Below, in pieces: positions 2,264 through 30,049 of a stretch of 57,265 bases of DNA. Below the pieces are notes generated by a model. The model was not told where the DNA came from, searched no databases, and saw only the letters and a list, made by a program, of their open reading frames with translations. Location of the stretch: the IMG/VR virus record IMGVR_UViG_3300015189_000005, positions 1 through 57,265 of that record. The stretch is one strand, 5' to 3'. Within the stretch, counting starts at the first letter, position 1; each line of letters begins with the position of its first letter. A program made the translations under genes and the position numbers. Source of the stretch: a virus.

Positions 2264-2960
2264 GTGCGTGACGTGCGGCGGTCCGTTCCTGCCGGGGCAG
2301 GAGATGGATGAGATGGGTCCGGGGCATGCTGATCCGCGCGACTGCGTTGAATTCTCTCGCGGCGAGTTCAGCCATCCGGGAACTCCGAATAGTCTCGCAG
2401 CGATTGAAGAATCGAAGCGCCTCAACGGGAACTTCTTTCTCGAAGAGCGTGTTGCGCAATGGATCTGCACCCGGCTCGGACCCGCCAACTGCGGACCGAA
2501 AGAGCGAGCCATGCGGGTGCTCGAAGAAGCCGTCGAACTGGCGCAGGCTGAGGGGATCACTCACGCGCAGGTGATTCGGCAGGCGGCCCACGTGTTCGCC
2601 CGTCCAGCCGGAGAGCCCGCGCAAGAGGCCGCAGGCGTTGCTGTCTGCCTGTTCGGCTGGTGCGCATCCCGGGGCCACCGCCTGATGGATCTGGCGACCG
2701 CCGAGATTGAGCGGATTGAAGCGAAACCACTGGAGCAGATCCGCGGGAGTCTCGCGCGGAAATCGGATGCTGATCTGGTTTGCCTGGCGGAACAGCAGGC
2801 GCCGTCATTCCCGATCTGCCGGATATGCGGCAGCGATTGGGACCTTTGCCCGCACACGGAGGGTCATCCGGCGGCGATTGAGTGGCCTATGATTGCGTTG
2901 CTGGCGGCTATCGTTATCGCGGTCATGGCCTCGATCTGGTTTGAATTGGTGGCCCCGTGA
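2256..2960 (+). CDS. MazG-like nucleotide pyrophosphohydrolase with Cys clusters and a C-terminal membrane helix
   Basis: 234 residues, GTG start overlapping the upstream stop. Residues 4-20 contain CVTCGG, a small zinc-type motif. About residues 88-165 match the MazG-like pattern seen in phages: RVLEEAVELAQAEGI, then RPAGEPAQEAAGVAVCLFGWC, then a helix with ELIERIE-type spacing; the Glu residues would bind Mg2+ for hydrolysis of nucleoside triphosphates or (p)ppGpp. Residues 188-202 carry ICRICG and a later C. The last 24 residues are a hydrophobic helix (MIALLAAIVIAVMASIW), so the enzyme may be membrane-tethered. The combination with two Cys sites and a membrane anchor is unusual. Confidence 0.7.
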   Translation: MNKCVTCGGPFLPGQEMDEMGPGHADPRDCVEFSRGEFSHPGTPNSLAAIEESKRLNGNFFLEERVAQWICTRLGPANCGPKERAMRVLEEAVELAQAEGITHAQVIRQAAHVFARPAGEPAQEAAGVAVCLFGWCASRGHRLMDLATAEIERIEAKPLEQIRGSLARKSDADLVCLAEQQAPSFPICRICGSDWDLCPHTEGHPAAIEWPMIALLAAIVIAVMASIWFELVAP

Positions 2961-4477
2961 GCCTCAGCCAGAGGAAGCCTTTGATCGCAGCGGATCTGTT
3001 CTGCGGGGCAGGCGGGACTTCCACCGGGCTGATCCGGGCCGCGAAGTCCCTCGGTTATGCCGACGATGACATCGACCTGCTCGCCATCAATCACTGGGAT
3101 GTGGCAATCCAGACTCACTCTGCGAACCACCCGGGTACGCGGCACAAATGCGAGTCTCTCGATAACGTGGATCCGCGCAAGGCGTTCCCCGGCGGCCGGC
3201 TGGACCTGCTGGTTGCATCTCCTGAATGCACCCATCACGCCAACGCGCGCGGCGGCAAGCCGATGTCTGACCAGAGCAGAGCATCCGCTTGGCACGTATG
3301 CCGGTGGGCGGAATCGCTCTACATCGACACGCTGATCGTTGAGAACGTCCGCGAGTTCCAGACATGGGGGCCAATCGGAGCTGACGGCCGTCCGCTGAAA
3401 TCGAAGCGCGGCCAGACCTTTCACGCGTGGCTGAAGGCGCTCGAATCACTCGGCTACAAGGTCGATTACCGCGTTCTCAATGCTGCCGATTATGGTGGGG
3501 CCACCACGCGCGAACGCCTGTTCGTGATGGCTCACAGGGGCAACCGTAAGCCCGCATGGCCGGAGCCGACGCACGGGCAAAATGCGGCCCTGCAGCGCGG
3601 CCTGTTCGGGCAGCGCTTGCCCTGGAAGCCAGCTCGCGATGTAATCGACTGGAGCCTCGCGGGAGAAAGCATTTTCCGCCGGAAGAAACCTCTTGCGAGA
3701 ACCACATTGGAGCGCATCGCAGCCGGGCTGAGGAAGTTCGGCGGCCGGAGCGCGGAGCCGTTCCTCGTGATTCTCCGGCGGCACATGGATGCTTCCAGCC
3801 TGAGCGAGCCGATGCCGACTGTGACGGCGGGCGGAACCCATATCGCACTTTGCGAGCCCTTTCTGGTCAATGCTGGCGGGCCGGAAGGTCAGGGCCGCAA
3901 CGCTCGAAGTATCGATGATCCGCTGGCCACCATCCTCACCGATAACCACATGGGCATCTGCGAGCCATTCCTGATGAATCTGAATAGGGCACAGGACGGA
4001 CCGGTGACAGTGGACGAACCGATACGAACGATCACCGCAACCAGTTCAGACTTCGCGATGGTTGAGCCATTCATCGCTGAGCTTCGCGGCGGGAAGTCTG
4101 CGAACTCGATCAGCGAGCCACTCAGCACGGTCACCACGAAGGGCGCTCATCATGCCCTGATCGAGCCCTTCGTAATCCCGCTGAATCACGGAGCCGGGGA
4201 CGTCCGGACCCATTCAATTGGTGAACCCCTGCCAACCATCACCACGGTAGATGCGTGGGCACTGATCGAAGCAGGGAAGGCCGTGCTCGATATCCGGTTC
4301 CGCATGCTGCAGCCACACGAACTGGCCTCGGCAATGGGATTCGACCGAAACTATCGCTTTGCCGGGAACCGCGAGGCCCGCGTGAAACAGATCGGCAATG
4401 CGGTGCATGTGGATGTGGCGGAGGCTCTGTGTCGCGAAGCCCTTCGGCCCGCCGCCGAACGCAGAAACGCAGCCTGA
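2957..4477 (+). CDS. DNA (cytosine-5) methyltransferase with internal repeats
   Basis: 506 residues, GTG start overlapping the previous stop. Motif I is DLFCGAGGTSTG (about residue 13). Motif IV is SPECTHHA rather than the usual PPC, still giving the catalytic Cys. Motif VI is ENVREF, motif VIII is TRERLF, and motif X is QIGNAVHVDVAEAL near the C-terminus. Between VIII and X, residues about 254-444 hold four to five imperfect repeats with the core EPL.T.T......L.EPF. This occupies the target-recognition region. Known relatives occur in other phages. Likely role: marking phage DNA against host restriction. The DUF1643 gene follows after two bases. Confidence 0.9.
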   Translation: MSLSQRKPLIAADLFCGAGGTSTGLIRAAKSLGYADDDIDLLAINHWDVAIQTHSANHPGTRHKCESLDNVDPRKAFPGGRLDLLVASPECTHHANARGGKPMSDQSRASAWHVCRWAESLYIDTLIVENVREFQTWGPIGADGRPLKSKRGQTFHAWLKALESLGYKVDYRVLNAADYGGATTRERLFVMAHRGNRKPAWPEPTHGQNAALQRGLFGQRLPWKPARDVIDWSLAGESIFRRKKPLARTTLERIAAGLRKFGGRSAEPFLVILRRHMDASSLSEPMPTVTAGGTHIALCEPFLVNAGGPEGQGRNARSIDDPLATILTDNHMGICEPFLMNLNRAQDGPVTVDEPIRTITATSSDFAMVEPFIAELRGGKSANSISEPLSTVTTKGAHHALIEPFVIPLNHGAGDVRTHSIGEPLPTITTVDAWALIEAGKAVLDIRFRMLQPHELASAMGFDRNYRFAGNREARVKQIGNAVHVDVAEALCREALRPAAERRNAA

Positions 4478-6843: not shown

Positions 6844-7842
6844 ATGAAACCCAGTCAAGTCAAGACCGCGATCAAGATCGCCATCAAAGCCAACCGCCCG
6901 GTGCTCGTATCAGGACAGCCAGGCGTGGGCAAATCCGAGGTCATCCGCAGCGTTGCCGCAGACCTCAAGATGACCCTAATCGACCAGCGAGCCGTGTTGC
7001 TCGACCCGGTCGACCTGCGGGGCCTGCCGCACGTGAACGGCGATAACCGGGCGCACTGGTGCTCCCCGGACTTCCTGCCCCAGATCGGCCGCGACGGCGC
7101 TCGCGGCATCCTGTTCCTGGACGAACTGCCACAGGCCCCGCCGCTGGTGCAAAGTGCGTGCTTCCAACTCATCCTCGACCGCAAACTGGGCGAGTATGCG
7201 CTGCCGGACGGCTGGATGTGCCTCGCCGCCGGAAACAACCTCGCCGACAGGGCGAACGTGCAGGCAATGCCGAGCCCCCTGAGGAATCGCTTTGTCCACA
7301 TCGACTTCGAACATGACGTCGACGACTGGTGCAACTGGGCGGTGAGCAATCAGATCCGGCCCGAGATCATCGCGTTCATCCGCTTCATGCCGAAGAGCCT
7401 GCACAACTTCGACCCGAACCAGCGCGATGCGAAAGCATTCGCCACCCCCCGGAGCTGGAAGTTCGCGAGTGATCTGCTGGCTGAAGGTATCCCGCCCGAG
7501 ATCGAAATGGAATTCATTTCCGGCACGGTCGGCCAGGGCGCGGCTACCGAGTTCCTCGGCTTCCTGCGGACCTTCCGCGATCTGCCGGACATGGATGCCA
7601 TCCTTCGCGACCCGCAAGGCACTCCGGTACCGACGCAACCAGCTGCACTGTACGCGGTGGCCACTGCACTCGGCAGCCGGATCACCGTTGCAAACGTTGC
7701 CACGATCATGGTCTACCTCGCGCGGCTCCCGAAGGAATTCGAGGTCGTCGCGATGACCGATGCGGTACGACGCGACCAGAATATCCAGCAGACGGCCAAT
7801 TTCGCCGGCTGGGCCGTGAAGAACGTCACGGTGATGATGTAG
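6844..7842 (+). CDS. MoxR-type AAA+ ATPase
   Basis: 332 residues. Walker A is GQPGVGKS (24-31), Walker B is ILFLDEL (89-95) and sensor 1 is the AAGNN segment; SPLRNRF supplies the Arg finger region. MoxR-type ATPases are hexameric remodelling enzymes that usually act with a VWA partner. The two genes downstream, a DUF3150-like protein and a metallopeptidase/VWA protein, complete the module. It could remodel a host complex or assist phage maturation; the target cannot be read from the sequence. Start set by the strong Shine-Dalgarno in the repeated leader. Confidence 0.88.
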   Translation: MKPSQVKTAIKIAIKANRPVLVSGQPGVGKSEVIRSVAADLKMTLIDQRAVLLDPVDLRGLPHVNGDNRAHWCSPDFLPQIGRDGARGILFLDELPQAPPLVQSACFQLILDRKLGEYALPDGWMCLAAGNNLADRANVQAMPSPLRNRFVHIDFEHDVDDWCNWAVSNQIRPEIIAFIRFMPKSLHNFDPNQRDAKAFATPRSWKFASDLLAEGIPPEIEMEFISGTVGQGAATEFLGFLRTFRDLPDMDAILRDPQGTPVPTQPAALYAVATALGSRITVANVATIMVYLARLPKEFEVVAMTDAVRRDQNIQQTANFAGWAVKNVTVMM

Positions 7843-7859
7843 CGCAGTCCGTCTCATTT

Positions 7860-7875
7860 CCCCTTTGCGTAGGAG
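7860..7875 (+). repeat. Repeated ribosome-binding leader, copy 3
   Basis: CCCCTTTGCGTAGGAG, seven bases before the ATG at 7883, 15 of 16 positions matching copy 1. Confidence 0.7.
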
Positions 7876-7882
7876 AAACCAT

Positions 7883-8869
7883 ATGAATTCCTCAGCAGCA
7901 GTATCCAGAAAGCGAACCGTCACTTCGCGCCCGGTCCATGGTGGCCGGGTGGTGAAGGCGGAGATCAGAAGCCAAGTTCCGACAGCGCCCGTCGCGGAAG
8001 ACAGCGCGCTCGCCGAGCGCGCCATGCTGGTGAACCTCAGTGTCAGCGTGTGGACTGCCCGCAAGCACGACGCGAAGGTCAGCGCGGCCGTGGCTGCTCA
8101 GCACGGTGCGACTGCCAAGGTCGGACGCTATAACAAAATGCTGGTGGCCCGCGAGAGGCTCAGCGACCTGACGAAACTGGCCAGCCGGGTGCGCACCGTC
8201 CATTACGAGCTGACGCTGCCATGGGCGGATGAAGGCGCTCGCATCCTGCCGAGTGCCCTGTACCTGCAGTACACGTCCGCTATCGGCCAGCTCCGCGACC
8301 AATTCGACGCCACGGCGGATCAGTTCGCGCTCGATTACCCCGAGTACCAGGCCGAGCAGATCCGGTTCTCCGGCACCCTGTGCGAAGCCGGGGAGTATCC
8401 CTCAGCGGATGAGATTCGCCGGAAGTTCGCCGTGTCGGTTAAGGTGCTCCCGGTACCGACCGCAGCGGATTTCCGCGTCCAGCTCGGCGACATCGACCGC
8501 AGCGTCATCAAGGCCCAGATCACGGCGCAGATGGAAGAAACGATGTCGATCGCACTTCGCGACTGCTTCCGACGCGCCTACAAATCCGTTGAGCACATGG
8601 CCACCCGGCTCGACCTGTTCGGTCAGGACGATAAGTCCCCGTTCCGCGATTCCCTTGTCGTCAACGTGCGTGAGATGTGCGACCTGCTCGGCTCGCTGAA
8701 CGTGATGCAGGATCGACACCTCAGCCGGATGGTGGATGAGATCCGGGACCGACTCACGGTCCACACGGCTGGCGATCTCCGGATAGATCAAACTGCGCGC
8801 GAGAAGACGGCCGCCGCGGCCCGCGACATCATGAGCCGGATGAGCGACTACATCGGAGGTGGGAACTGA
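7883..8869 (+). CDS. DUF3150-like partner of the MoxR/VWA module
   Basis: 328 residues, mostly helical. Recognisable segments are NLSVSVWTARKHDAKVSAAV, the YNKMLVARERLSDLTKLASR helix, and HYELTLPWADEGARILPSAL. The position between a MoxR ATPase and a VWA protein matches DUF3150, a family I recall from phages and plasmids with no known activity. Its last codons overlap the next ATG (TGATG), so the two proteins are probably made in fixed ratio. Family call rests on context and general pattern. Confidence 0.65.
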   Translation: MNSSAAVSRKRTVTSRPVHGGRVVKAEIRSQVPTAPVAEDSALAERAMLVNLSVSVWTARKHDAKVSAAVAAQHGATAKVGRYNKMLVARERLSDLTKLASRVRTVHYELTLPWADEGARILPSALYLQYTSAIGQLRDQFDATADQFALDYPEYQAEQIRFSGTLCEAGEYPSADEIRRKFAVSVKVLPVPTAADFRVQLGDIDRSVIKAQITAQMEETMSIALRDCFRRAYKSVEHMATRLDLFGQDDKSPFRDSLVVNVREMCDLLGSLNVMQDRHLSRMVDEIRDRLTVHTAGDLRIDQTAREKTAAAARDIMSRMSDYIGGGN

Positions 8870-10161
8870 TGGCACTGCCGAAAGCAGAGATCACCGCCGA
8901 GTGCCGCATCAGCAAGGCGCGCATCAAGCTCCTGATGCAGCAGCCGTTCTTCGGCACGCTCGCGCTCCGGCTCCGGATGATCGAGGCTGACCCGCGCATC
9001 ATTCCGACCATGGCGACGGACGGAAATCATATTTTCTACTCATCGAAATTCGTGGACAGCATCACCGATGCGCAGTTGCGCGGCGTAGTCGCCCACGAAG
9101 TCATGCACCCGGCGCTTCAGCACCTTTCCCGCATCCGGAGCCGGAACCTGCCGATCTGGAATATGGCTTGCGACTACGCCATCAACCCGATCCTGATCGG
9201 AGCCGGTCTGGAGCTTCCGCAGGGAGCGCTGATCGACAGCGACCGGTTCCCGCCGGAGATGTCGGCGGATGAGATCTACCAGATTCTGTACGCCGAGGCC
9301 CGCCAGCAAGCCCAGAATGCTCCCGGTATGGCCGGGGATGGTGATGGATCGTCAGAGTCCGGGGAAACGGCTGGTGAGTCTCAGGATGCGAGCGGGAGCG
9401 GTCAGGCGAAGCCCGGATCATCCGCCGTTGAGACTCCGGGCGGGTTTGGTCAGATGCTGGATCCGACCTCAGTCGATCCGTCTACTGGCCAGGTCAAAGC
9501 GGCCAGTCCCGCGGATCTCGCGGCAGCAGCAGATGAGTGGCGGATTGCTGCCGAACAGGCCGCGCGGGTGGCGAAGAACAGGGGCCGACTCCCGGCGAAC
9601 CTCGAACGCCTCGTGCATGAGGCGAAACAGGAGCAAATCGACTGGCGTGAGCAGCTCCGCCGGTTCGTCTCCACCGTCACCCCGAATGACTACTCCTGGA
9701 GTCGCCCGAACCGGCGCCACATCGCCGCCGGGCTCTACCTCCCCGGAATGGTCAAGGACGGTATCGGCGAGATCGTCGTCGCGGTCGACACCTCCGGCAG
9801 CATCGGAAACCACGAACTGAGCGCGTTCTCTGCGGAGATTGCTGCCATCTGCCGGGAGTGCAATCCCGAGCGCGTGTACGTGGTCTACTGTGATGCCGCG
9901 GTGGCCTGCGTTGAGGAGTTCGCCGCCGGAGATGATGTCCGCCTCACTCCGCACGGCGGAGGCGGTACCGACTTTCGGCCGCCCTTCGCGTGGGTGGAAC
10001 AGCAGGGCATTGACCCGCAGTGCCTGATCTACCTCACCGATCTCTGCTGCGACAGCTACCCGAAGGAGCCGCACTATCCCGCGATGTGGGTTTCGACCTA
10101 TGCCCGCATGGCGGCTCCGTGGGGTGAGACTCTCTACCTCCGACCGGAGTTATGCCGATGA
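8869..10161 (+). CDS. Metallopeptidase-like/VWA protein (DUF2201 type)
   Basis: 430 residues in two parts. The N-terminal part has the zinc-peptidase motif HEVMH (residues 76-80) in VVAHEVMHPALQH. A Gly/Ser/Glu-rich linker covers about 145-200. The C-terminal part is a VWA-like domain with MIDAS motif DTSGSIG (307-313) and a later GGGGTDFRPPF, the second metal-binding loop. It is the usual partner of MoxR ATPases. Whether the peptidase site is active is unknown. The stop overlaps the next start (ATGA). Confidence 0.85.
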   Translation: MALPKAEITAECRISKARIKLLMQQPFFGTLALRLRMIEADPRIIPTMATDGNHIFYSSKFVDSITDAQLRGVVAHEVMHPALQHLSRIRSRNLPIWNMACDYAINPILIGAGLELPQGALIDSDRFPPEMSADEIYQILYAEARQQAQNAPGMAGDGDGSSESGETAGESQDASGSGQAKPGSSAVETPGGFGQMLDPTSVDPSTGQVKAASPADLAAAADEWRIAAEQAARVAKNRGRLPANLERLVHEAKQEQIDWREQLRRFVSTVTPNDYSWSRPNRRHIAAGLYLPGMVKDGIGEIVVAVDTSGSIGNHELSAFSAEIAAICRECNPERVYVVYCDAAVACVEEFAAGDDVRLTPHGGGGTDFRPPFAWVEQQGIDPQCLIYLTDLCCDSYPKEPHYPAMWVSTYARMAAPWGETLYLRPELCR

Positions 10162-12227: not shown

Positions 12228-12639
12228 CCCTCACGACGGACTGCGGGTCAGCGGGCTCCGGTTCGAGGTAACCGGGAATGCTGATGTGCAGACCTTTCAT
12301 ACCTCACGTGGCCAGGTTCACCGAGCTGGAAAAGTCATCCGGTGGTGCCTGGTTGCAGTCTCGGAGGAATCGGGTAGAGTAATACTGGCCGACAAGTTTG
12401 TCGGCAGCCGTGATCTGCCGAATTGCCCGGTATGGATGCAGGTTGCTGGACTGACGCTTGAACGGGTCAGGCGCGAGAGATTCGACGAGGCTGGCTGCAT
12501 GCCGTTTTCATTGATGTCCCATGTTGTGTCGGAGGTCAGCCGTTTCCTGGGTGGTTACGGCCTGATTGAAGTTCGGGCGCTGAGTAATGAGGAGATCTCG
12601 CCTGCTTTCGCGGAATACGTCGGGAGCCTGATGCGATGA
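12205..12639 (+). CDS. Hypothetical protein
   Basis: 144 residues; ATG lies 20 bases inside the end of the previous gene and the stop overlaps the next start (ATGCGATGA). Segments RFEVTGNADVQTFHTSRGQV and ILADKFVGSRDLPNCPVWMQ suggest a mainly beta N-terminal half, then helices. Not recognised. Confidence 0.5.
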   Translation: MTTTTHSDPHDGLRVSGLRFEVTGNADVQTFHTSRGQVHRAGKVIRWCLVAVSEESGRVILADKFVGSRDLPNCPVWMQVAGLTLERVRRERFDEAGCMPFSLMSHVVSEVSRFLGGYGLIEVRALSNEEISPAFAEYVGSLMR

Positions 12640-12923
12640 CGGACGAAGAGAAGTTCTTCGCGGTGAACTACATGGAGCGAGAAATTGAGCGAATCCAGAC
12701 CGGGGGCGATCAGTACTGGGTTCGAGGTATTCGTCCGCAAACGAAATGGCATTACTGCGATTTCGATTTCTCTCGTCTGATGATGGTGTGCGGCGGGATG
12801 GTTGTCAACGGGGCGTTGTGTCTGGCCAGCACGGAATACGGATATCCGCCAGCACCATCCGCGTGCTGTGAGAAGTGCATCGTTGAACTGACGGCAATGA
12901 TCCTGAAGGGAGAGATCCAGTGA
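12636..12923 (+). CDS. H-C-CxxC array member 1
   Basis: 95 residues. It opens the tandem small-protein family. Diagnostic residues: TKWHYCDFDF, then VCGG about 12 later, then CCEKC and LTAMILKGEIQ at the C-terminus. A metal site made of His, Cys and the terminal CxxC is likely. Start and stop overlap the neighbours by a few bases. Confidence 0.65.
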   Translation: MTDEEKFFAVNYMEREIERIQTGGDQYWVRGIRPQTKWHYCDFDFSRLMMVCGGMVVNGALCLASTEYGYPPAPSACCEKCIVELTAMILKGEIQ

Positions 12924-13225
12924 CCCCGGAAAGTACCCGAACCCCGGAAGAACGACAGTACAACACGGCGCATTATTCCAACCGGACCAAAACGTATCTG
13001 AAGATCGGGCAGGGAGAATACCTTATGCGGGGTGAAGCTCCCAGAACGCGATGGCATTACCTGTACTCCGGGGATGCAGTCTGCGGGATCAATCTCGGGA
13101 ATCCAGCCAGATTCACTGAGATCGATCTGGACGGAAACACCTGCTTCGATCCTGTTGAATGCTGCCCCGTATGCCTGGTGGCCGTCACCGTAAGACTGTT
13201 TCTCGGAGAGGCCAGAAAGCCATGA
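12920..13225 (+). CDS. H-C-CxxC array member 2
   Basis: 101 residues, GTG start in a GTGA overlap. TRWHYLYSGDAVCG matches member 1 position by position, and the C-terminal site is ECCPVCLVAV. The similarity to member 1 (TKWHY...VCG...CxxC) supports duplication. Function unknown. Confidence 0.65.
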   Translation: MTPESTRTPEERQYNTAHYSNRTKTYLKIGQGEYLMRGEAPRTRWHYLYSGDAVCGINLGNPARFTEIDLDGNTCFDPVECCPVCLVAVTVRLFLGEARKP

Positions 13226-13452
13226 CAATCACCATTACCGTCACCGTCGAGCGCGACCTGTCGAAACTCCCGGCGTTCAAATACCGGGCGAAGCTCAGGC
13301 GCGGGCAGATCAGCTTCGCGGGCAGTCTGTTCGGCTCCGTATCCCGGGCGAAGGCCGACGTTGAGGCCCTGCTGGACAGGCCGTTGAGATGGACTGATGC
13401 GAAGCCGGAAGACGCTACTCCCGTGCGTGCCACGGCGGAAATCGAGGTGTGA
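13222..13452 (+). CDS. Small hypothetical protein within the array
   Basis: 76 residues; ATG overlaps the upstream stop. No Cys pair, so not a member of the H-C-CxxC family. The first strand is TITITVTVERDL and a helix follows with SRAKADVEALLD. It looks like a small alpha/beta protein. Not recognised. Confidence 0.5.
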   Translation: MTITITVTVERDLSKLPAFKYRAKLRRGQISFAGSLFGSVSRAKADVEALLDRPLRWTDAKPEDATPVRATAEIEV

Positions 13453-13489
13453 TTTGGGGTTGCCATCGGAGATTAGCGCCTTCAATATC

Positions 13490-13732
13490 ATGGGAGAAAT
13501 CCACCTAAACGAAAACATCTGGTCTGGCCAATCATGGGCAGGTGGATGGATGTGTGGATGCGAAATAAAACGGTCCGTTCACACTCATTCTCTCGGCGTA
13601 ATTTACGAGCACAGGATGTGGCCTGGGAAATGGCTGACCCTTGACCAGGCGAAGCAAGCCGCCGGGGTGGAGAAGGTCTGCGAGGCGTGCGTTGCGGCCT
13701 TCGTGGCGAAGATCATGAGGGACGATGTTTAG
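13490..13732 (+). CDS. H-C-CxxC array member 3
   Basis: 80 residues. GGWMCGCEI is followed by the C-terminal block LTLDQAKQAAGVEKVCEACV and then AAFVAKIM, shared in part with members 4 and 6. Here the early part has CxC rather than WH...CG. Start taken at the ATG at 13490; a TTG at 13454 in the same frame is an alternative. Confidence 0.6.
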   Translation: MGEIHLNENIWSGQSWAGGWMCGCEIKRSVHTHSLGVIYEHRMWPGKWLTLDQAKQAAGVEKVCEACVAAFVAKIMRDDV

Positions 13733-13998
13733 CGTAAAAACCTATGAAGTCCTCGCGGTCTGTGTGCGGTCGGAAGTTCACTTTGTTTCCCGGCCCGGCG
13801 GATTCATGTGCTCTAACAATGTGTCTCCGGGATTCCAGCACAGTTCATCGCTGGTATGGGTGGGGAGAGCCGATAAGCGCGGGCAGCAGGCGTGCTTCAC
13901 GCTTGATGAGGCTCTTGAGCGTGCCGGGGTCCGATCACAGCGGAATCTGCGAGCAGTGCCTGGTTGAGTACACAGCCTTCCTGATGAGGTGCTCCTGA
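13725..13998 (+). pseudogene. H-C-CxxC array member 4, frameshifted
   Basis: The reading from 13725 carries SEVHFVSRPGGFMCSNN and FTLDEALERAGV, matching member 3, but then runs into unrelated sequence and stops at 13967. The expected ending GICEQCLVEYTAFLM is present in the +1 frame and stops at 13996-13998, overlapping the next ATG exactly as other genes here do. One extra base (or two lost) near 13930-13945 explains it. Sequence error or decay cannot be told apart. Confidence 0.55.
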
Positions 13999-14282
13999 TG
14001 GTGTTCCGAGCTTTCAAAGCTGATGATCAGGTTCACTTTCGCGTCGCAGCTGGGTTGACCACCGAAAGCCAGCCATGTTGCCCTGCCATGGATAACTACG
14101 CCCACGGAAAGTGCACCCGGATCTTCCTCGGAATCGTGCTTCAGGACGATCAGTGTGGGCTGACGGCACGGAAAATAACCATTGAACAACTGAGAGAGAA
14201 GATTGCGCCTGTCTGCGAGCAATGCACAGCCGCGCTGACGGCATATCTGATGACCGGGGAGGCCCCTGATGCCAGTAAATGA
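13998..14282 (+). CDS. H-C-CxxC array member 5
   Basis: 94 residues from the ATG overlapping the stop of member 4. DQVHFRVAAG gives the His; CCPAMDNYAHGKC adds Cys; the end is TIEQLREKIAPVCEQCTAAL then TAYLM, clearly related to members 3 and 4. Function unknown. Confidence 0.62.
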   Translation: MVFRAFKADDQVHFRVAAGLTTESQPCCPAMDNYAHGKCTRIFLGIVLQDDQCGLTARKITIEQLREKIAPVCEQCTAALTAYLMTGEAPDASK

Positions 14283-14715
14283 CCTGACAGGCCGCCGCTT
14301 CGTCCGCCTCACGGTGAAGACCCTTGCGGGTATCCGCAACAGCCTTGCGTACTGGAATTGCGAGTGTGATTGCGGGAAATCAATCGAAGTCTGCGGTAAG
14401 TATCTGACACGCGGAAGCACTGTGAGCTGCGGCTGCTACCGATCCGATCCGGAAGTCCGCCGCGCCGCCCGGCTGCAGATGGAACCCGAGGATCGTGTCC
14501 GGGCCGCGAGAGGCGAACACGTGACGCCGGAGAAACCACCGGTGATTCCGCGGACTCCTGTCACCAGGGTGAAGAAGATCCTCCCGCTGAAGCCAGTGAA
14601 GAAGGTTGAACCCGTCGCGCCGCCTGCACCTCAGCCAGCTCCAGCCTCGCTACGGACGGCCGATCTGCCACGGGTCACTTCACGGACCAGACAGAAGCCC
14701 GGAATTCTGCGATGA
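14269..14715 (+). CDS. Cys-rich DNA-binding-type protein with a basic Pro-rich tail
   Basis: 148 residues. Residues 1-60 follow the pattern LTGRRFVRLTVKT ... YWNCECDCG ... GSTVSCGCYR, a Cys-rich module I know from phage HNH/AP2-type and related DNA-binding proteins. The rest is basic and Pro-rich (KPVKKVEPVAPPAPQ). It is unlike the family around it and seems to have been inserted into the array; the remnant-like gene at 14606 lies just after. Confidence 0.65.
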   Translation: MPVNDLTGRRFVRLTVKTLAGIRNSLAYWNCECDCGKSIEVCGKYLTRGSTVSCGCYRSDPEVRRAARLQMEPEDRVRAARGEHVTPEKPPVIPRTPVTRVKKILPLKPVKKVEPVAPPAPQPAPASLRTADLPRVTSRTRQKPGILR

Positions 14716-14842
14716 TTTCACGGGTGTCGTAACCGATAAAGACAGTACTCTCTGGTGGGCAGAGGAAACGTTCTCTCTCATCTGGCATGAGCCGCGATGC
14801 CCCCGATGCCTGGCCGCTTTCGTCGCGAAGGTGATGGCGTGA
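14606..14842 (+). CDS. H-C-CxxC array member 6, possibly a remnant
   Basis: Up to 78 residues if the ATG at 14606 (inside the previous gene, other frame) is used. The C-terminal block WHEPRCPRCLAAFVAKVM is nearly identical to that of member 3, so the end is certainly from this family. The N-terminal half, overlapping the previous gene for 110 bases, is doubtful. It may be a member truncated by insertion of the Cys-rich gene upstream. Confidence 0.4.
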   Translation: MNPSRRLHLSQLQPRYGRPICHGSLHGPDRSPEFCDDFTGVVTDKDSTLWWAEETFSLIWHEPRCPRCLAAFVAKVMA

Positions 14843-14867
14843 AGCTGATCTTCGGGGATACCCAGAG

Positions 14868-15161
14868 ATGACGATTTCTAAGATTGAAATCGACGGCGTT
14901 GAATTCGAGTGGATCGGAAAATGGGCGTCGAGTTATTCAGGCAGCCGGATCTATCACCTGGTGGGATCGGGCCCGGCATACACCATGGATGGTGAAACAA
15001 TCGGCCGCGAGTTAGAGGAGAAATCTGTCTGCGGTGAAGACGTCAGTGCCTGCCGGCCCGCCCCGCACTACTTCCGGCCGCAGCCTCGCCAGACGTGCCC
15101 GGAATGCGCGGCGAAGCTGATGGCGGCGATGATGACCGGCGAGGAGGTAGCGAAGCCATGA
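14868..15161 (+). CDS. H-C-CxxC array member 7
   Basis: 97 residues. SRIYHLVGSGPAY supplies the His, SVCGEDVSAC the middle Cys, and QTCPECAAKLMAAMMTGEE the terminal site. The TGATGACCGG coding near the end is also seen in member 5. ATG follows CAGAG weakly as ribosome site. Confidence 0.62.
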   Translation: MTISKIEIDGVEFEWIGKWASSYSGSRIYHLVGSGPAYTMDGETIGRELEEKSVCGEDVSACRPAPHYFRPQPRQTCPECAAKLMAAMMTGEEVAKP

Positions 15162-15448
15162 AGCTGCGCCTATTATGCAATCAGGAGTCAGATCCGAATA
15201 CCGTGCAGTGGGTTGCGCCTGTTGATGCTGGCGGGAGGTGGCACGTTGTCGCCTGGGCAAGCCATTTCGGCGATCAGTTTGCCGAGGCAAACGTCACGAC
15301 GTTGTGCGTCCGCAGGTTCAGTATTCCGCTGAGCCACACCGTACTGGAGGCTCCTCCAGCCGAGACAGAAAATGCCTGCGTTTACTGCTGTGTTCGCGCG
15401 GTGACTTTAGCGATAAATGGCGCGGGTTTACAGGACACTGCTCCGTGA
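15158..15448 (+). CDS. H-C-CxxC array member 8
   Basis: 96 residues, ATG overlapping the previous stop. GGRWHVVAWASHFGDQF, then TTLCVRRF, then NACVYCCVRAV give the H, C, CxxC order. The tail after the CxxC is longer than in its relatives. Function unknown. Confidence 0.6.
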   Translation: MKLRLLCNQESDPNTVQWVAPVDAGGRWHVVAWASHFGDQFAEANVTTLCVRRFSIPLSHTVLEAPPAETENACVYCCVRAVTLAINGAGLQDTAP

Positions 15449-15657
15449 CGACGGGTCGGACGGACGATGATCCGCTGTTGTTCATCAAGGCCCGTGGCGT
15501 CTGGCACATTCACCGGATGGCAGGTTACTACCACTGCTGGGGGCAGGTTTCCGAAACAGACATTGACAACAAAGCGATCCTACACGAGCCGTCCGATAAC
15601 GGCCCGCGTTGCGAGAAGTGCCATGTGAATTTCGTTGTAGCGAAGATTGGCAAGTAA
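15445..15657 (+). CDS. H-C-CxxC array member 9
   Basis: 70 residues, GTG overlapping the previous stop. GVWHIHRMAGYYHCWGQV and PRCEKCHVNFVVAKIG. It is the closest relative of member 11, sharing G.WHIH...G...CW and the P.CE.C.V end, which shows that the array grew by duplication. Confidence 0.62.
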   Translation: MTTGRTDDDPLLFIKARGVWHIHRMAGYYHCWGQVSETDIDNKAILHEPSDNGPRCEKCHVNFVVAKIGK

Positions 15658-15670
15658 GGCAGGAATTGAA

Positions 15671-15922
15671 ATGGAACTGCACAGAGACGACTCAGCTACC
15701 TCAGAGTGGCTGGACAGCCTCACCCGCCCGGCAGAAATGCAATTTCTGAATGATCGAGAAGCGGAGATTTCGCACATTCGCGATCAGGATTATTCCTCCG
15801 ATTTTGCACTGTGCGCATTGTTGCGGTTGATAAGGTGGCCCGAGAAATCACTGGAGCCGAGGTACGCAATCTGCCCGAACTGCGCGAAAGATGCCGTCCT
15901 CCGGGCCATGGGAGCGACATGA
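15671..15922 (+). CDS. H-C-CxxC array member 10
   Basis: 83 residues. AEMQFLNDREAEISHIRDQD, FALC, and AICPNCAKDAVLRAMGA. Member 12 at 16161 has the same blocks in the same order (ELQFL, AEVSHIR, FALC, ICPACAREAVLDAMG), so the two are clear paralogues. It ends in ATGA coupled to member 11. Confidence 0.65.
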   Translation: MELHRDDSATSEWLDSLTRPAEMQFLNDREAEISHIRDQDYSSDFALCALLRLIRWPEKSLEPRYAICPNCAKDAVLRAMGAT

Positions 15923-16173
15923 GCCAGGTCTACACCCTGCCACCTCCCGAGAGCCCATGGGTGAAGCTCGCCGGCCAGTGGCACATCCACCACGGTACCG
16001 GCGTGATGATCTGCTGGATCGCGAATCCCGGCGCGGGGACAAGGCTGGATATGACTTCGTTCTGCGATCTTGTTCTCTTGGGACATGCTCTGGTGGACTG
16101 CCCACCGGAAGATGAACCGAAGTGCGAGCAGTGTTGCGTGATCGAAGCCGCGAGGATTGCATGGGACTACTAG
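15919..16173 (+). CDS. H-C-CxxC array member 11
   Basis: 84 residues. GQWHIHHGTGVMICWIANP and PKCEQCCVIEAARIAW, paralogous to member 9. Alternation of the 9/11 and 10/12 types suggests that a two-gene unit was duplicated. Confidence 0.65.
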   Translation: MSQVYTLPPPESPWVKLAGQWHIHHGTGVMICWIANPGAGTRLDMTSFCDLVLLGHALVDCPPEDEPKCEQCCVIEAARIAWDY

Positions 16174-16394
16174 CCACGCCGGAACCGGAACTGCAATTCC
16201 TGACTGAACCGGGCGCGGAGGTTTCGCATATACGATGTGAACGATATTCATGGATGGAATCACAATTCGCGCTGTGTACGCCAAGACTGATGTCGGCCAT
16301 GCAGAGGACGCCGGAACCGTTGCGACCGATCTGTCCGGCATGCGCGCGAGAGGCTGTTCTGGATGCGATGGGAATCTACAGGCCATTGGTGTGA
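16161..16394 (+). CDS. H-C-CxxC array member 12
   Basis: 77 residues. ELQFLTEPGAEVSHIRCERY, FALC and ICPACAREAVLDAMG match member 10. It overlaps member 11 by 13 bases in another frame. Confidence 0.65.
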   Translation: MGLLATPEPELQFLTEPGAEVSHIRCERYSWMESQFALCTPRLMSAMQRTPEPLRPICPACAREAVLDAMGIYRPLV

Positions 16395-16614
16395 CGACGG
16401 ATTCGGGCGGATATATCTCTTCGACTTCGGGCGAAAACTCCGTCACATCCCGGACCCCAGCCCGTTGATTTCGCCACGGATTACATGCTGCGGAGCATAC
16501 CTCCACGATGCTATTGGTGTCGTCCGGTATCCAGGCCTCTTTCCGCTCTGCGAGCAGTGCGCGGTCGCCTTCGTGCTCCGGCAGATGGACGTCCGTCCGG
16601 CGGGTTCCAGTTAA
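16363..16614 (+). CDS. H-C-CxxC array member 13 (last)
   Basis: 83 residues from an ATG 32 bases inside member 12. GRIYLFDFGRKLRHIPDP, ITCCGAYLHDA and PLCEQCAVAFVLRQM follow the family order with the middle CC. It closes the array; the next 700 bases are non-coding. Confidence 0.55.
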   Translation: MRWESTGHWCDDGFGRIYLFDFGRKLRHIPDPSPLISPRITCCGAYLHDAIGVVRYPGLFPLCEQCAVAFVLRQMDVRPAGSS

Positions 16615-17312: not shown

Positions 17313-17702
17313 ATGGCCGAAAACGATATCCCGGTATTCGTCGATCCCGCACCGGCCGAGGGCAAGGCCAAAGCACCGAAGGCCCGCCAGGTGGCCCGCA
17401 TCAAGCCGGGCGAGGCCTGCGTCATCGTCCAGCAGGGATACGCCGGATGGCGAGGCCGGAAGAAGCGAGCCATCACGCTCATGATCCCGGTATCCGCCCT
17501 GCTGGCCTTTGTCAGCCAGATGCGGTACAAGCCCCGCCCGGAAGCCTCCGCGCTCGACAGCCGGACCCACAAGAAGTTGCCCGGGCTGGCCAACTACATG
17601 CACATCCGGAACGAGCACTACGCCCCCGATGCCGCCGGACGCGATGAGGTCTATCAGCCCGAGCTGGTGACTATCCGCAGGGTCGTTGAGCAGTTTTCCT
17701 GA
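17313..17702 (+). CDS. First late-operon protein, unknown
   Basis: 129 residues. The N-terminal 30 residues are Pro/Ala-rich. The rest has GEACVIVQQGYAGWRGRKKR, a hydrophobic stretch ITLMIPVSALLAFVSQM and a C-terminal DEVYQPELVTIRRVVEQF. The stop overlaps the next ATG (TGATG). Not recognised; it may bind DNA or assist packaging given the location. Confidence 0.55.
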   Translation: MAENDIPVFVDPAPAEGKAKAPKARQVARIKPGEACVIVQQGYAGWRGRKKRAITLMIPVSALLAFVSQMRYKPRPEASALDSRTHKKLPGLANYMHIRNEHYAPDAAGRDEVYQPELVTIRRVVEQFS

Positions 17703-18244
17703 TGAAGCGATTACACCTACCGATCAACGATGGGCAGCGGAAGTATCGCGGCTTCAGGGGCGGAAAGCAGGAATCGCACGGTCCGGTAAAGGTGATCTTT
17801 AGCCGAGACGCAAATCCTGTCATTGACCCGCCGACGAAAAACGGAATGCAGGCTGGCAGGCTGCGGCAAAACGCACCAGCATGCGAGAGGCTGCTGTGGG
17901 ATGCGCTGAAATCGATTGGCGCAAGGTTCGGCGTACCGTTCCAGCACTCGGTCGCACTCTACGGCTATGTGGCTGATTTCTATTGCCCGTCGTTGAATGT
18001 CGTGATTGAATTGGACGGCTATTTTCACAAGAATCGGCAGCAGCACGACAGGTGCCGAGACGCTGCATTGCAAGGGCACGGAATACGGACGCTGCGCTTT
18101 CCGTCAGTACTTGCCCACGCGGACATGGACGGGCTTCTCGGTCAGATCGTCCAGGAGTTGGGGTTGAAGTCGTGCTACGGTGAAATCGTCGGGCGCGCTG
18201 AATGCGAAAGCGAGACGGGGAGAGACCCTCCCGGGCACACCTGA
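17702..18244 (+). CDS. DUF559 (Vsr/PD-(D/E)xK-like) endonuclease
   Basis: 180 residues. Residues 55-155 hold the DUF559 pattern: LRQNAPACERLLWDALKS, VPFQHSVALYGYVADFYCPS, LNVVIELDGYFH with the catalytic Asp/Glu, and D..R...L..HGIRTLRFPS. DUF559 proteins resemble the mismatch nuclease Vsr and often behave as mobile or homing nucleases. It lies just upstream of the packaging genes, like the HNH nucleases of many siphoviruses, but may equally be a passenger. The 185 bases after it are unusual (see next entry). Confidence 0.8.
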   Translation: MKRLHLPINDGQRKYRGFRGGKQESHGPVKVIFSRDANPVIDPPTKNGMQAGRLRQNAPACERLLWDALKSIGARFGVPFQHSVALYGYVADFYCPSLNVVIELDGYFHKNRQQHDRCRDAALQGHGIRTLRFPSVLAHADMDGLLGQIVQELGLKSCYGEIVGRAECESETGRDPPGHT

Positions 18245-18429: not shown

Positions 18430-18792
18430 GTGCCCAGTTCACCGCCATCGGTCCCGGTCATCGCCAGTAAGATCGGCTCAGTCTCTTGGGCTTCGATCTC
18501 AGCAAGTAAGATCGCCTCCGGCACGATCACGGCAAGCCAGATCGCTTCCGTCTCGGCGAGTTCAATCTCCTTCGATCCGCCACCTGATCCCGTTGAGGTC
18601 CTCATCCGGCGCACCGCCGCGACCACCTTCGGCTATCGCAACTACGCCGAGCGCTGCAAGTACCTTGAAGAGGTCGAGCGCTTCGCTACCGCAACAGTGG
18701 ACCGCATGGCCCAGCAGGTAGAGACGGCTTCAAATATTGCCAAACTGTTCGCATCCGGAATATCCGCCGCAACTCCGGCCGCTCCGAAATGA
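18430..18792 (+). CDS. Small protein carrying tail-fibre-type repeats
   Basis: 120 residues from a GTG. Residues 10-45 read IASKIGSVSWASISASKI, then GTITASQIASVSASSIS, the same 17-residue repeat that fills the large tail protein at 36669 (GxITxxQIxSVxAxSIT). Residues 50-120 are a helical domain with RNYAERCKYLEEVERF. It ends in ATGA coupled to the next gene. It may be a fragment of a fibre gene fused to another domain or a protein that joins the fibre fold. Confidence 0.5.
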   Translation: MPSSPPSVPVIASKIGSVSWASISASKIASGTITASQIASVSASSISFDPPPDPVEVLIRRTAATTFGYRNYAERCKYLEEVERFATATVDRMAQQVETASNIAKLFASGISAATPAAPK

Positions 18793-19195: not shown

Positions 19196-19721
19196 CCCCA
19201 TTGCCCCGATTGAACTCGGCTCAACCAAGGTCCGGAAAAAACCCGGCCCCGCGAAAGGCCACGGAGGCAGCCAGATCGGCATCAGCATCGACTTCAATCT
19301 GGTTGTTTCGCTCGCGTCCGTGGGGTGCACGGACAAGGAAATCGCCACCGTGATCGGGATGCGGCATGAGCACTTCTGCCGCCGGAAGATCGAGGTTGGC
19401 ACGTACGAGGTCCGCGATCACAAGACGAAGCGCGTGACCGACACGATCACGATGACCCTCGCCGAGGCGTGCGAGTACGGTCGCGAGGGCCAGCTGAAAA
19501 CGAGCCTCCGCCGGGCTCAGTACGAGGCCGCGATGAGGGGCAACCCGACGATGCTGATTTGGCTGGGCAAGCAACTGCTGGGACAGAAAGACATCGTGAT
19601 CAATGAGATGGTCGACCCTCTGACGAATGGCACGAACCCGCGAGAGAGACTGTACAGCAGCATCGCTCGCCAGGCTGCCAGCCAGGCGCGTAAAGGCCGC
19701 TCTCCAAAAGCTGACAGATGA
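19140..19721 (+). CDS. Terminase small subunit-like protein
   Basis: 193 residues. The N-terminal 55 residues are Pro/Lys-rich. Then comes a helix-turn-helix type region, VVSLASVGCTDKEIATVIGM, followed by LAEACEYGREGQLKTSLRRAQ, AAMRGNPTMLIWLGKQLLGQ and a C-terminal tail. Small terminases bind the packaging start site through an HTH and hand it to the large subunit, which is the next gene. The middle motif 'G.TD.EIA...G' is the usual marker. Confidence 0.75.
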   Translation: MPKPKAETPDSPGQPNKPDPIAPIELGSTKVRKKPGPAKGHGGSQIGISIDFNLVVSLASVGCTDKEIATVIGMRHEHFCRRKIEVGTYEVRDHKTKRVTDTITMTLAEACEYGREGQLKTSLRRAQYEAAMRGNPTMLIWLGKQLLGQKDIVINEMVDPLTNGTNPRERLYSSIARQAASQARKGRSPKADR

Positions 19722-20949
19722 CGAAGTCGAAGCGCTGCTGTACGACTGGCGGTTCTGGGCGCGGCCCGGGCAGCTCGCCCCATCGGGTGACCGCTGGCGC
19801 ACATGGATGGTGCTTGCAGGTCGCGGCTACGGCAAGACCCGGACCGGTGCGGAATGGCTTCGCGAGAAGGTAGAGCGGCACCCCCAATGCCGGATCGCGC
19901 TGGTGGCCGCAACATCCGCCGATTGCCGCGAGACGATGATCGAGGGCGATAGCGGGCTGCTCAGCATCTTCCCGCCGGGACGCCGGCCGAGGTGGGAGCC
20001 ATCGAAGCGGCGCCTCACGTTCGCCAACGGCGCTCTGGCGACGACGTACTCAGCTGAGGAGCCTGAGAGACTCCGCGGCCCGCAGCATCACTTCGCCTGG
20101 TCGGATGAGTTGTGCGCCTGGAAGTATCCGCAGGAAACGTGGGACATGCTCCAGTTCGGGCTCCGCCTCGGCGAGCAGCCGCAGCAGATCGTAACGACGA
20201 CGCCGAAGCCGATCAAGACGCTTCGCAAGATCCTCAGCATGCCGAGCACGCGCATCACGCGCGGCAACACGTACGAGAACGAAGCCAATCTGGCGCCTGC
20301 GTTCATCGCCGAGGTCATCGCCCCGTATGAGGGAACCCGGCTGGGCCGTCAGGAGATCGAAGCCGAAGTACTCGAAGACGTCGAAGGCGCACTCTGGTAT
20401 CGCGACTGGTTCGACCGGCACCGCGTCACCCATATCGCGAATCGTGATCTGGTCCGCGTGGTCGTCGCTGTGGATCCTGCAGTAACCGCCACTCAGGCGA
20501 GCGATGAAACCGGCATCGTAGTTGCGGCGAAGGGCGTCGACGGCCGCGGCTACGTGCTGGACGATCTGAGTTGCCGGGTGAGCCCGGACGCATGGGCAAG
20601 CCGGACAGTGGGTGCGTATCACCAGTACGAGGCTGACCGGATCATCGGTGAGGCGAACAACGGCGGAGACCTGATCGAGAGGATGATCCGGCTGGTGGAT
20701 CCGCGGGCCAGTTATCGCAAGGTCAATGCCTCGCGGGGCAAGATCGCCAGAGCAGAGCCCATCGCGGCCTTGTACGAGCGCGGCCTGATTTCCCATGTGG
20801 GCACGTTCGCCCGGATGGAAGACGAGTGTTGCTCCTACACCGGAGCACCCGGCGAGATGTCGCCGAACCGCATGGATGCGCTCGTCTGGGCGCTGAGTGA
20901 ACTGTTCATCGAGAATCGCACCGGCGGGCCGAAAGTCCGCAGATTGTAG
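19627..20949 (+). CDS. Terminase large subunit
   Basis: 440 residues. ATPase domain: Walker A is GRGYGKT (65-71) in MVLAGRGYGKTRTGAEW; Walker B is FAWSDELCAW (about 156-165). Nuclease domain: VVAVDPAVT with Asp283 and DETGIVV, then EANNGGDL, and a C-terminal RMDALVWALSELF. The start is uncertain: the ATG at 19627 lies 95 bases inside the small subunit gene, and no other ATG or GTG occurs before the conserved LLYDWRFWARPGQ. It cuts and pumps DNA into the prohead. Confidence 0.9.
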   Translation: MARTRERDCTAASLARLPARRVKAALQKLTDDEVEALLYDWRFWARPGQLAPSGDRWRTWMVLAGRGYGKTRTGAEWLREKVERHPQCRIALVAATSADCRETMIEGDSGLLSIFPPGRRPRWEPSKRRLTFANGALATTYSAEEPERLRGPQHHFAWSDELCAWKYPQETWDMLQFGLRLGEQPQQIVTTTPKPIKTLRKILSMPSTRITRGNTYENEANLAPAFIAEVIAPYEGTRLGRQEIEAEVLEDVEGALWYRDWFDRHRVTHIANRDLVRVVVAVDPAVTATQASDETGIVVAAKGVDGRGYVLDDLSCRVSPDAWASRTVGAYHQYEADRIIGEANNGGDLIERMIRLVDPRASYRKVNASRGKIARAEPIAALYERGLISHVGTFARMEDECCSYTGAPGEMSPNRMDALVWALSELFIENRTGGPKVRRL

Positions 20950-28361: not shown

Positions 28362-28688
28362 ATGATCCGACTCGACCAAACGGCACTGGATTACCTGATC
28401 GACGTCGCCAGGGACAGCGGCTTTGATGCGCAAGAGATTTACACCAGCGAGGCTGACGGACAGTTGCCGGAGGTGACCATCATCCTTCGCCAGCAAGGTG
28501 CTCCTGGCGTCGCCCGCCTAAAAATGCCCGACCTGTCTGGTTTGTCGCCGGAGTATCTGGACGAACTTCGGAAGGCTCTGGCCGAACTCAACCAGCGTGA
28601 ACCGACCGGCATCCTCGACCATCTCGCAGTTTACGCCAGTCAGCGAATCGCCCCTGACAAATTCCAGACGCTCGACCAAGGAGAATAA
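28362..28688 (+). CDS. Hypothetical protein
   Basis: 108 residues. ALDYLIDVARDSGFDAQEIY is helical, then a strand region VTIILRQQGAPGVARLKM, then LSPEYLDELRKALAELNQRE. It sits between the Ala-rich gene and the first glycosyltransferase. Not recognised. Confidence 0.5.
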   Translation: MIRLDQTALDYLIDVARDSGFDAQEIYTSEADGQLPEVTIILRQQGAPGVARLKMPDLSGLSPEYLDELRKALAELNQREPTGILDHLAVYASQRIAPDKFQTLDQGE

Positions 28689-28716
28689 CCGTGAACCATT
28701 ACCTGAGGATGAAGCG

Positions 28717-29397
28717 ATGAACCAGCCTCTGATCTCCTGCATCATGCCCACCCGCAACCGGCGCGAGTTCGTGCCCGGGGCTCTGCGGTGCTGGGATGCG
28801 CAGACCTGGGCGAATAAAGAACTGGTCGTCATCGACACGAGCGATGAGCCGATTCAGGACCTGCTGCCACGCAATGACAAGCGCATCCGGTATGTCAGGA
28901 TCCAGCCCGCCACGGAGTTCAACACAGGGGCCGTGCGGAACATTGCCTGCGGTCTGGCGAACGGGGAATTCATCGCACACTTCGACGATGACGACTGGAG
29001 CCACCCTCACCGCCTCCGTGAGCAGTGGAAGTCGCTGGCGCAGTCCGGCCGGGGCGTGAGTGGCTACCGATCAATTCTGTTCGCGGATGAGGCTGAGCGC
29101 CGCGCCTGGTGCTTCCGTGGCGCCGAAGCAGCAAGCTCCGCCCTCGGTACCTCGCTGTTCTACGCGCGCCCGTTCTGGCGACATCATCCGTTCAGGCCCC
29201 TGCTCATGGGCGAGGATGGCGAGTTCGTCCGGACCGCAGTCGAGCACAACAGTCTGATCTCGGTGGACGGGTTCTACCGCTGCATCGCCCGGGTCCACGC
29301 CGGGAACACGAGCCCGAAGTTCACCGACGACGAGCAGTGGACCGAGATCCACGACGCGCGGGAAATGGACCGCATTATCAACACGCTGAACGAATAG
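28717..29397 (+). CDS. Family 2-type glycosyltransferase 1
   Basis: 226 residues. GT-A fold markers: LISCIMPTRNRREFVPGALR (nucleotide-sugar binding), KELVVIDTSDE, and the metal-binding HFDDDDW (about 88-94). Later LLMGEDGEFVRTAV supplies the acceptor-side acidic motif. It could glycosylate a virion protein, phage DNA or host surface glycan; the genome gives no base-modification genes, so virion or host surface is more likely (inference). It heads a set of three glycosyltransferases and a methyltransferase. Confidence 0.85.
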   Translation: MNQPLISCIMPTRNRREFVPGALRCWDAQTWANKELVVIDTSDEPIQDLLPRNDKRIRYVRIQPATEFNTGAVRNIACGLANGEFIAHFDDDDWSHPHRLREQWKSLAQSGRGVSGYRSILFADEAERRAWCFRGAEAASSALGTSLFYARPFWRHHPFRPLLMGEDGEFVRTAVEHNSLISVDGFYRCIARVHAGNTSPKFTDDEQWTEIHDAREMDRIINTLNE

Positions 29398-29407
29398 CAA
29401 ACACCCC

Positions 29408-29656
29408 ATGAAAGAACAACCTGTACTGCGGTGGCTGCTGTTCTGGCTCGCCGTGTATGTGATGCTGCACATCGGTATCTCGCTCTACGCGGGCAAGGCG
29501 GCCGATGCGCTTTCCACCACCAACAGCCTGATTTCCGGCTTCGCGGGTGCCGCGTTCACCATGATGCGCCTGACCGGCGAAAAGGGTTCCGGCCGCAACG
29601 ATGAAAACAGCAGTAACAGTAATTCAGCCGGCGATCCGCCGCCCGCTTCGAAGTAA
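29408..29656 (+). CDS. Small membrane protein, possible holin
   Basis: 82 residues. One membrane helix near the start (WLLFWLAVYVMLHIGISLYA), a second weakly hydrophobic segment (TTNSLISGFAGAAFTMMRLT) and a polar Ser/Asn-rich tail. Size and topology suit a holin. It is followed by another membrane protein, as in lysis cassettes, but no endolysin is adjacent. Confidence 0.5.
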   Translation: MKEQPVLRWLLFWLAVYVMLHIGISLYAGKAADALSTTNSLISGFAGAAFTMMRLTGEKGSGRNDENSSNSNSAGDPPPASK

Positions 29657-30000
29657 TGGGAGTATCCCGGATGAATCCCTGTATACCTCACTGCGAAATG
29701 GACAGCAAGCTCGACGTAATACTCGCAAAGCTCGAACGGGTCGGCATCGAGCAGGCCCAGTTGCGGGACGCCGTAGACGGCATCAACGCCAGGCTGGACA
29801 CGCTAAACGGGAAGGTCTCACGGCACGAAGATCGGCTGAATGCGCAGGCCATCACCGAAGCTGAGCGCAAGGGCGCGGCCAGTGTAAATAACCGTTGGGA
29901 AGAGCGACTGAAGCCTGCGGTATGGGCTTTCATCGGGATCCTCGCGATGCTCATTCTCCAGAACAGCAGCGCAGTGCTGAAGGCCATTTCACCGAAGTAG
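29656..30000 (+). CDS. Coiled-coil protein with a C-terminal membrane helix
   Basis: 114 residues; ATG overlaps the upstream stop. A coiled coil with ILAKLERVGIEQAQLRDAVD and RLDTLNGKVSRHEDRLN is followed by a membrane helix (AVWAFIGILAMLILQN) and short tail. This layout is common in phage lysis-associated or haemolysin-XhlA-like proteins. It probably acts with the previous gene. Confidence 0.55.
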   Translation: MGVSRMNPCIPHCEMDSKLDVILAKLERVGIEQAQLRDAVDGINARLDTLNGKVSRHEDRLNAQAITEAERKGAASVNNRWEERLKPAVWAFIGILAMLILQNSSAVLKAISPK

Positions 30001-30049
30001 TTCGGCAGTTCAATCCCCTTCGAAAGCAACGAAAGCAACCCACAAACCT

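Follow-up and report, generated by a model that had tools for sequence, protein, structure and literature searches.

A tandem array of small His–Cys–CxxC micro-proteins in a temperate tailed phage

Introduction

Small proteins built around a few cysteine and histidine residues are common in phage and halovirus genomes, where they go unnamed, and almost none has an assigned function. A locus at positions 12636–16614 of the IMG/VR virus record IMGVR_UViG_3300015189_000005 raises the question of why one phage would carry a whole row of such micro-proteins, whether they share an origin, and what they might do for the virus. The DNA analyzed here, which we call the window, is this one record of 57,265 bases. 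It encodes a tyrosine integrase, a terminase, a portal with a Mu F-like domain in fusion, an S78 prohead protease and an HK97-type capsid; the source virus is a temperate tailed phage. Here we report that 13 genes of the locus are related beyond what their composition explains, that the family is confined to this array within the phage, and that its copies appear to be old and maintained as proteins.

Results

Gene content of the array

The span proposed in the initial annotation, 12636–16614, is correct, and so is the size range of 70–101 residues that it gave for the encoded proteins. Its count of about twelve members becomes 13 CxxC genes among 15, all on the plus strand, with two non-members (g3 and g7) in the same run. 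Members follow the architecture H[hydrophobic]-x(5-24)-C...CxxC and then a short C-terminal helix, with about 10–19 residues between the CxxC and the end of the protein; the C-terminal part would form a metal-binding hairpin and helix. The genes are as follows.

g1, 12636–12923, plus strand: 95 residues, WHY...CG...CEKC-helix; forms a subfamily with g2 (E = 1.6e-8); jackknife score 22.5 bits
g2, 12920–13225, plus strand: 101 residues, WHY...CG...CPVC; its GTG start overlaps the g1 stop
g3, 13222–13452, plus strand: 76 residues, without cysteine; non-member inside the operon, strongly coding by codon preference
g4, 13490–13732, plus strand: 80 residues, IHL...CGC...CEAC
g5, 13725–13998, plus strand: VHF...C...CEQC; a frameshift near 13930 splits the gene
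g6, 13998–14282, plus strand: 94 residues, VHF...CC...CEQC
g7, 14269–14715, plus strand: 148 residues, cysteine-rich non-member; HNH endonuclease family match without the HNH core
g8, 14606(?)–14842, plus strand: at most 78 residues, LHL...C...CPRC; doubtful start (the TTG at 14606 overlaps g7); profile match at 14603–14842
g9, 14868–15161, plus strand: 97 residues, YHL...CG...CPEC
g10, 15158–15448, plus strand: 96 residues, WHV...C...CVYC; clusters with g11 and g13
g11, 15445–15657, plus strand: 70 residues, WHI...CWG...CEKC; GTG start; gene 1 of copy 1 of the duplicated unit
g12, 15671–15922, plus strand: 83 residues, SHI...C...CPNC; gene 2 of copy 1
g13, 15919–16173, plus strand: 84 residues, WHI...C...CEQC; gene 1 of copy 2
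g14, 16161–16394, plus strand: 77 residues, SHI...C...CPAC; gene 2 of copy 2
g15, 16363(?)–16614, plus strand: at most 83 residues, RHI...CCG...CEQC; doubtful start

Both non-members were tried as array members and rejected, g3 for its lack of cysteine and g7 as an internal piece of an HNH-endonuclease family protein. The latter matches phrog_374 (HNH-endonuclease-type; E = 3.6e-18) over profile positions 192–257 of 617, and may be what is left of an endonuclease gene that inserted here. Ten of the 13 members are plain intact genes. The two parts of g5 lie in open reading frames (ORFs) of different frames, with separate profile matches at 13725–13937 and 13894–13995; the first half resembles g4 up to TLDEALERAGV, the second holds the CEQC, and codon preference switches frame near 13930. 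The split is due to a sequencing error or else marks a broken gene. For g15, the candidate ATG at 16363 overlaps g14 by 32 nucleotides, and the GTG at 16391 is in a different frame.

The start-to-stop overlap described in the initial annotation exists at most junctions: by 4 nucleotides at g1/g2, g2/g3, g9/g10, g10/g11 and g12/g13, and by 1–32 nucleotides at g4/g5, g5/g6, g6/g7, g13/g14 and g14/g15, while that at g7/g8 hinges on the doubtful g8 start. Intergenic gaps precede g4, g9 and g12. No terminator-like site was found inside the array, and a promoter scan of this strand gave no match to its sigma-70 consensus, which may not be that of the host. We rejected the reading that these are spurious ORFs, as most genes show their codon-preference peak in the proposed frame; the preference is marginal for g10 and g15, and g14 is an exception, yet it is backed by synonymous changes relative to g12.

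Relatedness beyond composition

Each member was scored by a hidden Markov model (HMM) built from the other 12, and the score was compared with those of 300 shuffles per member in which all cysteines and histidines were held fixed. All 13 members scored between 11.8 and 22.9 bits, and only one shuffle in 3,900, for g10, reached the real score, with none for the other 12 members. This excludes Cys/His composition alone as the cause of the similarity, and the reading of the family as a composition artefact was rejected accordingly; the relatedness claimed at the outset thus withstood the check. When the CxxC tail was removed, g2, g11 and g13 alone were still clearly significant, indicating that it is chiefly the C-terminal CxxC-helix module whose common ancestry is shown. 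Alignment of the H...C part is possible within the subfamilies g1/g2, g10/g11/g13, g12/g14 and g4/g5, with a weaker g4/g6 match. As a loose pattern, H..C is weak given composition (product of shuffle frequencies 0.007); a histidine with a hydrophobic residue right after it and, within about 25 residues, a cysteine occurs in 13 of 13 members (shuffle product 7e-8, for a pattern picked post hoc). The shared H...C...CxxC order put forward in the initial annotation therefore stands as a pattern in every member, but as an alignment beyond the tail only within subfamilies. Searched against the whole window, the family profile matched inside the array only, with no member elsewhere in the phage.

Duplication and selection

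Close paralogues are g12 and g14 (50% identity, E = 9e-17, tree support 98/99), as are g11 and g13 (blastp E = 9e-7). Together these pairs fit a duplication of the two-gene unit g11–g12, as had been proposed from the alternation of the genes. A second C-terminal type had also been suggested for the third to sixth members; pairwise matches do join g4, g5 and g6, and the CxxC tail of g8 is 62% identical to that of g4 over 16 residues, but the deep branches of the tree are not separated. Between g12 and g14 the nonsynonymous rate (dN) is 0.47 and the synonymous rate (dS) 2.0, which is near saturation; across both pairs dN is 0.47–0.73, dS is near saturation and dN/dS is about 0.2. These rates argue that the duplications are old and that the measurable paralogue pairs are under purifying selection, and hence that the copies are maintained as proteins. 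The "very strong diversification" noted initially thus holds for the high divergence, although the selection in measurable pairs appears purifying rather than positive. Direct DNA repeats within the array are few, none above 85% identity.

Predicted structure

An AlphaFold2 model of g14, built on an alignment of 12 window sequences, has a mean predicted local distance difference test score (pLDDT) of 79.7 and a beta-beta-CxxC-helix arrangement, with H23 in the second of two strands; C39 and a short strand come next, and C58-x-x-C61 opens the helix. From this order of structural elements we infer the geometry of a putative metal site. The top viral Foldseek matches of g14 are proteins of HCTV-2 (76 residues) and HHTV-2 (74 residues), with probabilities of 0.90 and 0.82, template modelling (TM) scores of 0.54–0.58 and E values of 0.2–0.3; equated with the fold-library entries by virus and length, these proteins show between them the stretches AHIF...ICG...VCGNC and THLF...LCG...VCTNC. 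Weaker matches to actinophage proteins follow. Comparison with the PDB by fold and by sequence gave nothing significant, the weak resemblances being mostly to small zinc-binding ribosomal proteins. Most members are acidic or neutral (isoelectric point (pI) 4.8–7.7, net charge −6.2 to +0.7).

Searches for relatives

Library searches gave little: the best Pfam match was Zn_ribbon_IS1595 with g12 at 19 bits, below the cut-off of 25.4; nothing in PHROGs fell below E = 0.18 for ten members or 0.43 for g8, nor in NCBIfam below E = 0.11. Twelve members compared with the PADLOC models matched none of them at E up to 1, and since these models describe defence proteins, this null result says little on counter-defence. 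A tblastn search of all 13 members at E up to 5 against 50,697 phage records came back empty, a weak test given the small size of the proteins and the low-complexity filter. The one match in a plasmid search arose by chance, as did the single match in viral-contig scans with g13, g12/g14, g1/g2, g9 and g4, a 17-residue hit in a larger frame.

Terminase relatives, up to 62% identical, came from 35 IMG/VR loci and from 23 loci in genomes. The array is missing from all 35 viral records, and the family profile had no match below E = 0.06 in the 6 of the 23 genomes that were searched with it. Against 395–400 genomes from each of two phyla it gave single matches at E = 0.006–0.008, which is chance level. 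No closely related phage turned up in VWA and portal scans, and an invented generic H-CG-CxxC probe gave nothing convincing. We also scanned for the pattern in 68 loci (1.42 megabases), comprising the window, loci overlapping it or one another, and otherwise phages, haloviruses and prophage regions. The window holds 10 pattern ORFs within 4 kilobases and the next-highest locus 3, partly in random frames. No second tandem family of comparable size occurred among these loci, a sample that excludes genomes of the Acidobacteria, the suspected host group. As the survey is small and this class is poorly detected by sequence search, absence elsewhere is weak evidence.

Genomic setting

The array is flanked by an AAA ATPase/DUF2201 pair (6844–10161) and by the packaging genes (large terminase subunit, 19627–20949). 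Its G+C fraction is 0.57–0.58, compared with about 0.61 over most of the genome; low G+C and a position between AAA/VWA genes and the terminase are common for accessory genes. The arrangement of an AAA ATPase beside a DUF2201/VWA-like protein recurs in HHTV-2, HCTV-2, Hardycor1 and HVTV-1, whose genomes also contain an H-C-CxxC micro-protein, and Gordonia phage FlyingTortilla has an AAA plus CobT-like version of the pairing.

Several further genes of the window deserve mention in their own right. A DUF559 gene (Vsr-like nuclease fold; 17702–18244) lies directly upstream of the packaging genes, a C5 cytosine methylase gene at 2957–4477, and at 52711–55257 an 848-residue protein unites a helicase part of SNF2 type with an N6/N4 DNA methylase domain in a single chain. 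A 1470-residue tail-region protein (36669–41081; weak PHROG tail match) consists largely of SITSGQISSVAASTITG-like repeats, a stretch of which also occurs in a short ORF at 18430–18792 near the small terminase region. Judged by eye from the translations, the tail region also has three or four ORFs that resemble glycosyltransferases or methyltransferases, at 28597–32121. The protein at 45714–46283 on the minus strand ends in MGLRFNPGGAFTSV, an ending that we take to be typical of Acidobacteriota (Solibacter-like) and thus a hint at the host group.

Discussion

We tentatively favor, at less than an even chance, a reading of the array as an accessory operon of tandem-expanded, single-metal micro-proteins that act as different binding factors on host proteins in infection. 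One gene for a probably zinc-binding micro-protein of about 80 residues would have been duplicated in tandem until 13 copies stood in one co-directional operon. Each protein would hold one metal ion by one histidine, one cysteine and, where a helix begins, a terminal CxxC, in a compact, treble-clef-like scaffold (modelled for g14 alone), while freely varying stretches between the ligands would give every copy a different surface. Made together in infection, the proteins would each block or redirect a different host protein, in host takeover or counter-defence. We infer the identity of the targets as well as the timing of expression and the co-expression; the binder role on the host is our best guess, drawn by analogy with the takeover cluster of SPO1 discussed below.

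This reading draws on the relatedness of the 13 members beyond composition and their confinement to the array; on the overlapping start and stop codons, the single strand and the lack of a terminator-like site inside; on the pairwise and tree evidence of tandem and two-gene-unit duplication, and on purifying selection in the paralogue pairs. It further draws on the g14 model, which has its histidine in a beta strand and begins its last helix with the CxxC; on the closest folds, those of small proteins without a name from phages and haloviruses, the halovirus ones with the same order of residues; on the lower G+C and a location typical of accessory genes; and on the existence of small-gene takeover clusters in other phages, such as that of SPO1 (PMC6873191).

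Several observations weigh against it. For most members the family alignment loses significance once the CxxC tail is left aside, so that their N-terminal parts could differ in fold. Only one of two models is confident, that of g4 being poor (pLDDT 55), and the models contain no metal ion. Three of the 13 genes (the split g5, and g8 and g15 without a convincing start) appear damaged or oddly annotated, which would be surprising if every copy were needed. No defence or counter-defence family was matched, in searches that covered very few such libraries. The roles in counter-defence or host takeover that the initial annotation proposed, with a separate target for each protein, are putative, counter-defence being a plausible one.

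The damaged-looking genes bear on a different explanation, in which the array is a birth-and-death product of non-adaptive or dosage-driven amplification, its copies arising by recombination and decaying so that few are functional. One frameshifted copy, two without a clear start and the absence of the array from the other phages searched are in keeping with this, but dN lies well below dS in g12/g14 and g11/g13, ten intact frames point to selection on the proteins, and the DNA, with few repeats, is too divergent for ongoing recombination; we regard this explanation as unlikely. It is similarly improbable, in our judgement, that the members are nucleic-acid-binding regulators, each with its own DNA or RNA site and controlling one step of the phage programme, a role that has been suggested for small zinc-finger proteins of haloarchaea and their viruses. 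Work cited in PMC7230728 does describe small CxxC proteins in haloarchaea with roles in gene regulation (Brz) or DNA binding (AFV1p06), and the PDB resemblances, none of them significant, are mostly to zinc-binding ribosomal proteins. The acidic or neutral character of most members is, however, unlike that of typical nucleic-acid binders, and we noticed no repeated operator-like sequence in the array.

The repeated two-gene unit (g11–g12, g13–g14) and the tight translational overlap could also mean that members act jointly, as pairs or a hetero-oligomer, with g11-type and g12-type proteins alternating as obligate partners that were duplicated together. We give this the least credence, because the other members do not alternate, g10 is a third g11-type copy with no g12-type partner behind it, and duplication of neighboring genes requires no functional link. 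Under the favored reading of separate binding factors, one micro-protein scaffold might even have given rise to a co-translated bank of at least a dozen binders, with a different host or defence protein as the target of each, a step that we consider possible but doubtful. Thirteen variants of one scaffold in one phage form a natural set for probing the binding targets of that scaffold, and they let one ask if phages vary a single small fold to act on many host targets; standard libraries overlook this entire class of proteins.

Comparison with known systems

Other phages do carry single proteins with this pattern, as anticipated in the initial annotation: the order of histidine, cysteine and CxxC, at a similar size, is found in HHTV-2, HCTV-2, Hardycor1, HVTV-1 and phiC31. 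HHTV-2 gene 84, HCTV-2 gene 72, Hardycor1 HrrHc1_205 and HVTV-1 gene 68 encode 64–86 residues with an H[I/L], a C(G) and a late CxxC; in these tailed haloviruses such proteins are few and scattered per genome, whereas the array is a tandem family. An hhalign comparison of the array with the profiles of a halovirus trio gave a probability of 0.2%, and the family HMM found no match in ten records, so that the likeness appears to be one of common design, with kinship not supported by sequence. In phiC31, gp54 (57 residues, THAV...ECG...TCTPC-helix) is likewise one small gene, but the sole clear copy. Arthrobacter phages Mufasa8 and Kumotta and Streptomyces phages Nesbitt and Shawty match g14 weakly, by fold alone.

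Many small proteins with cysteine motifs per virus are also found in the HF1-group haloviruses Hardycor2 and Serpecor1, which have 21–23 CxxC genes each, outside the structural genes (PMC7230728); the description given is of proteins containing at least one CxxC motif, not of a single tandem family. In HF2 the H-C-CxxC order is uncommon. The host takeover module of SPO1, a compact cluster of 26 genes, most of them small and presumed to target host processes (PMC6873191), resembles the array as a cluster of small genes; it is not reported as copies of one family, and its functions are partly known by experiment, whereas the array is known from sequence. As far as our searches reach, a tandem effector repertoire on a single fold has no earlier description. 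The array is a new arrangement of an already-known, unnamed type of phage micro-protein.

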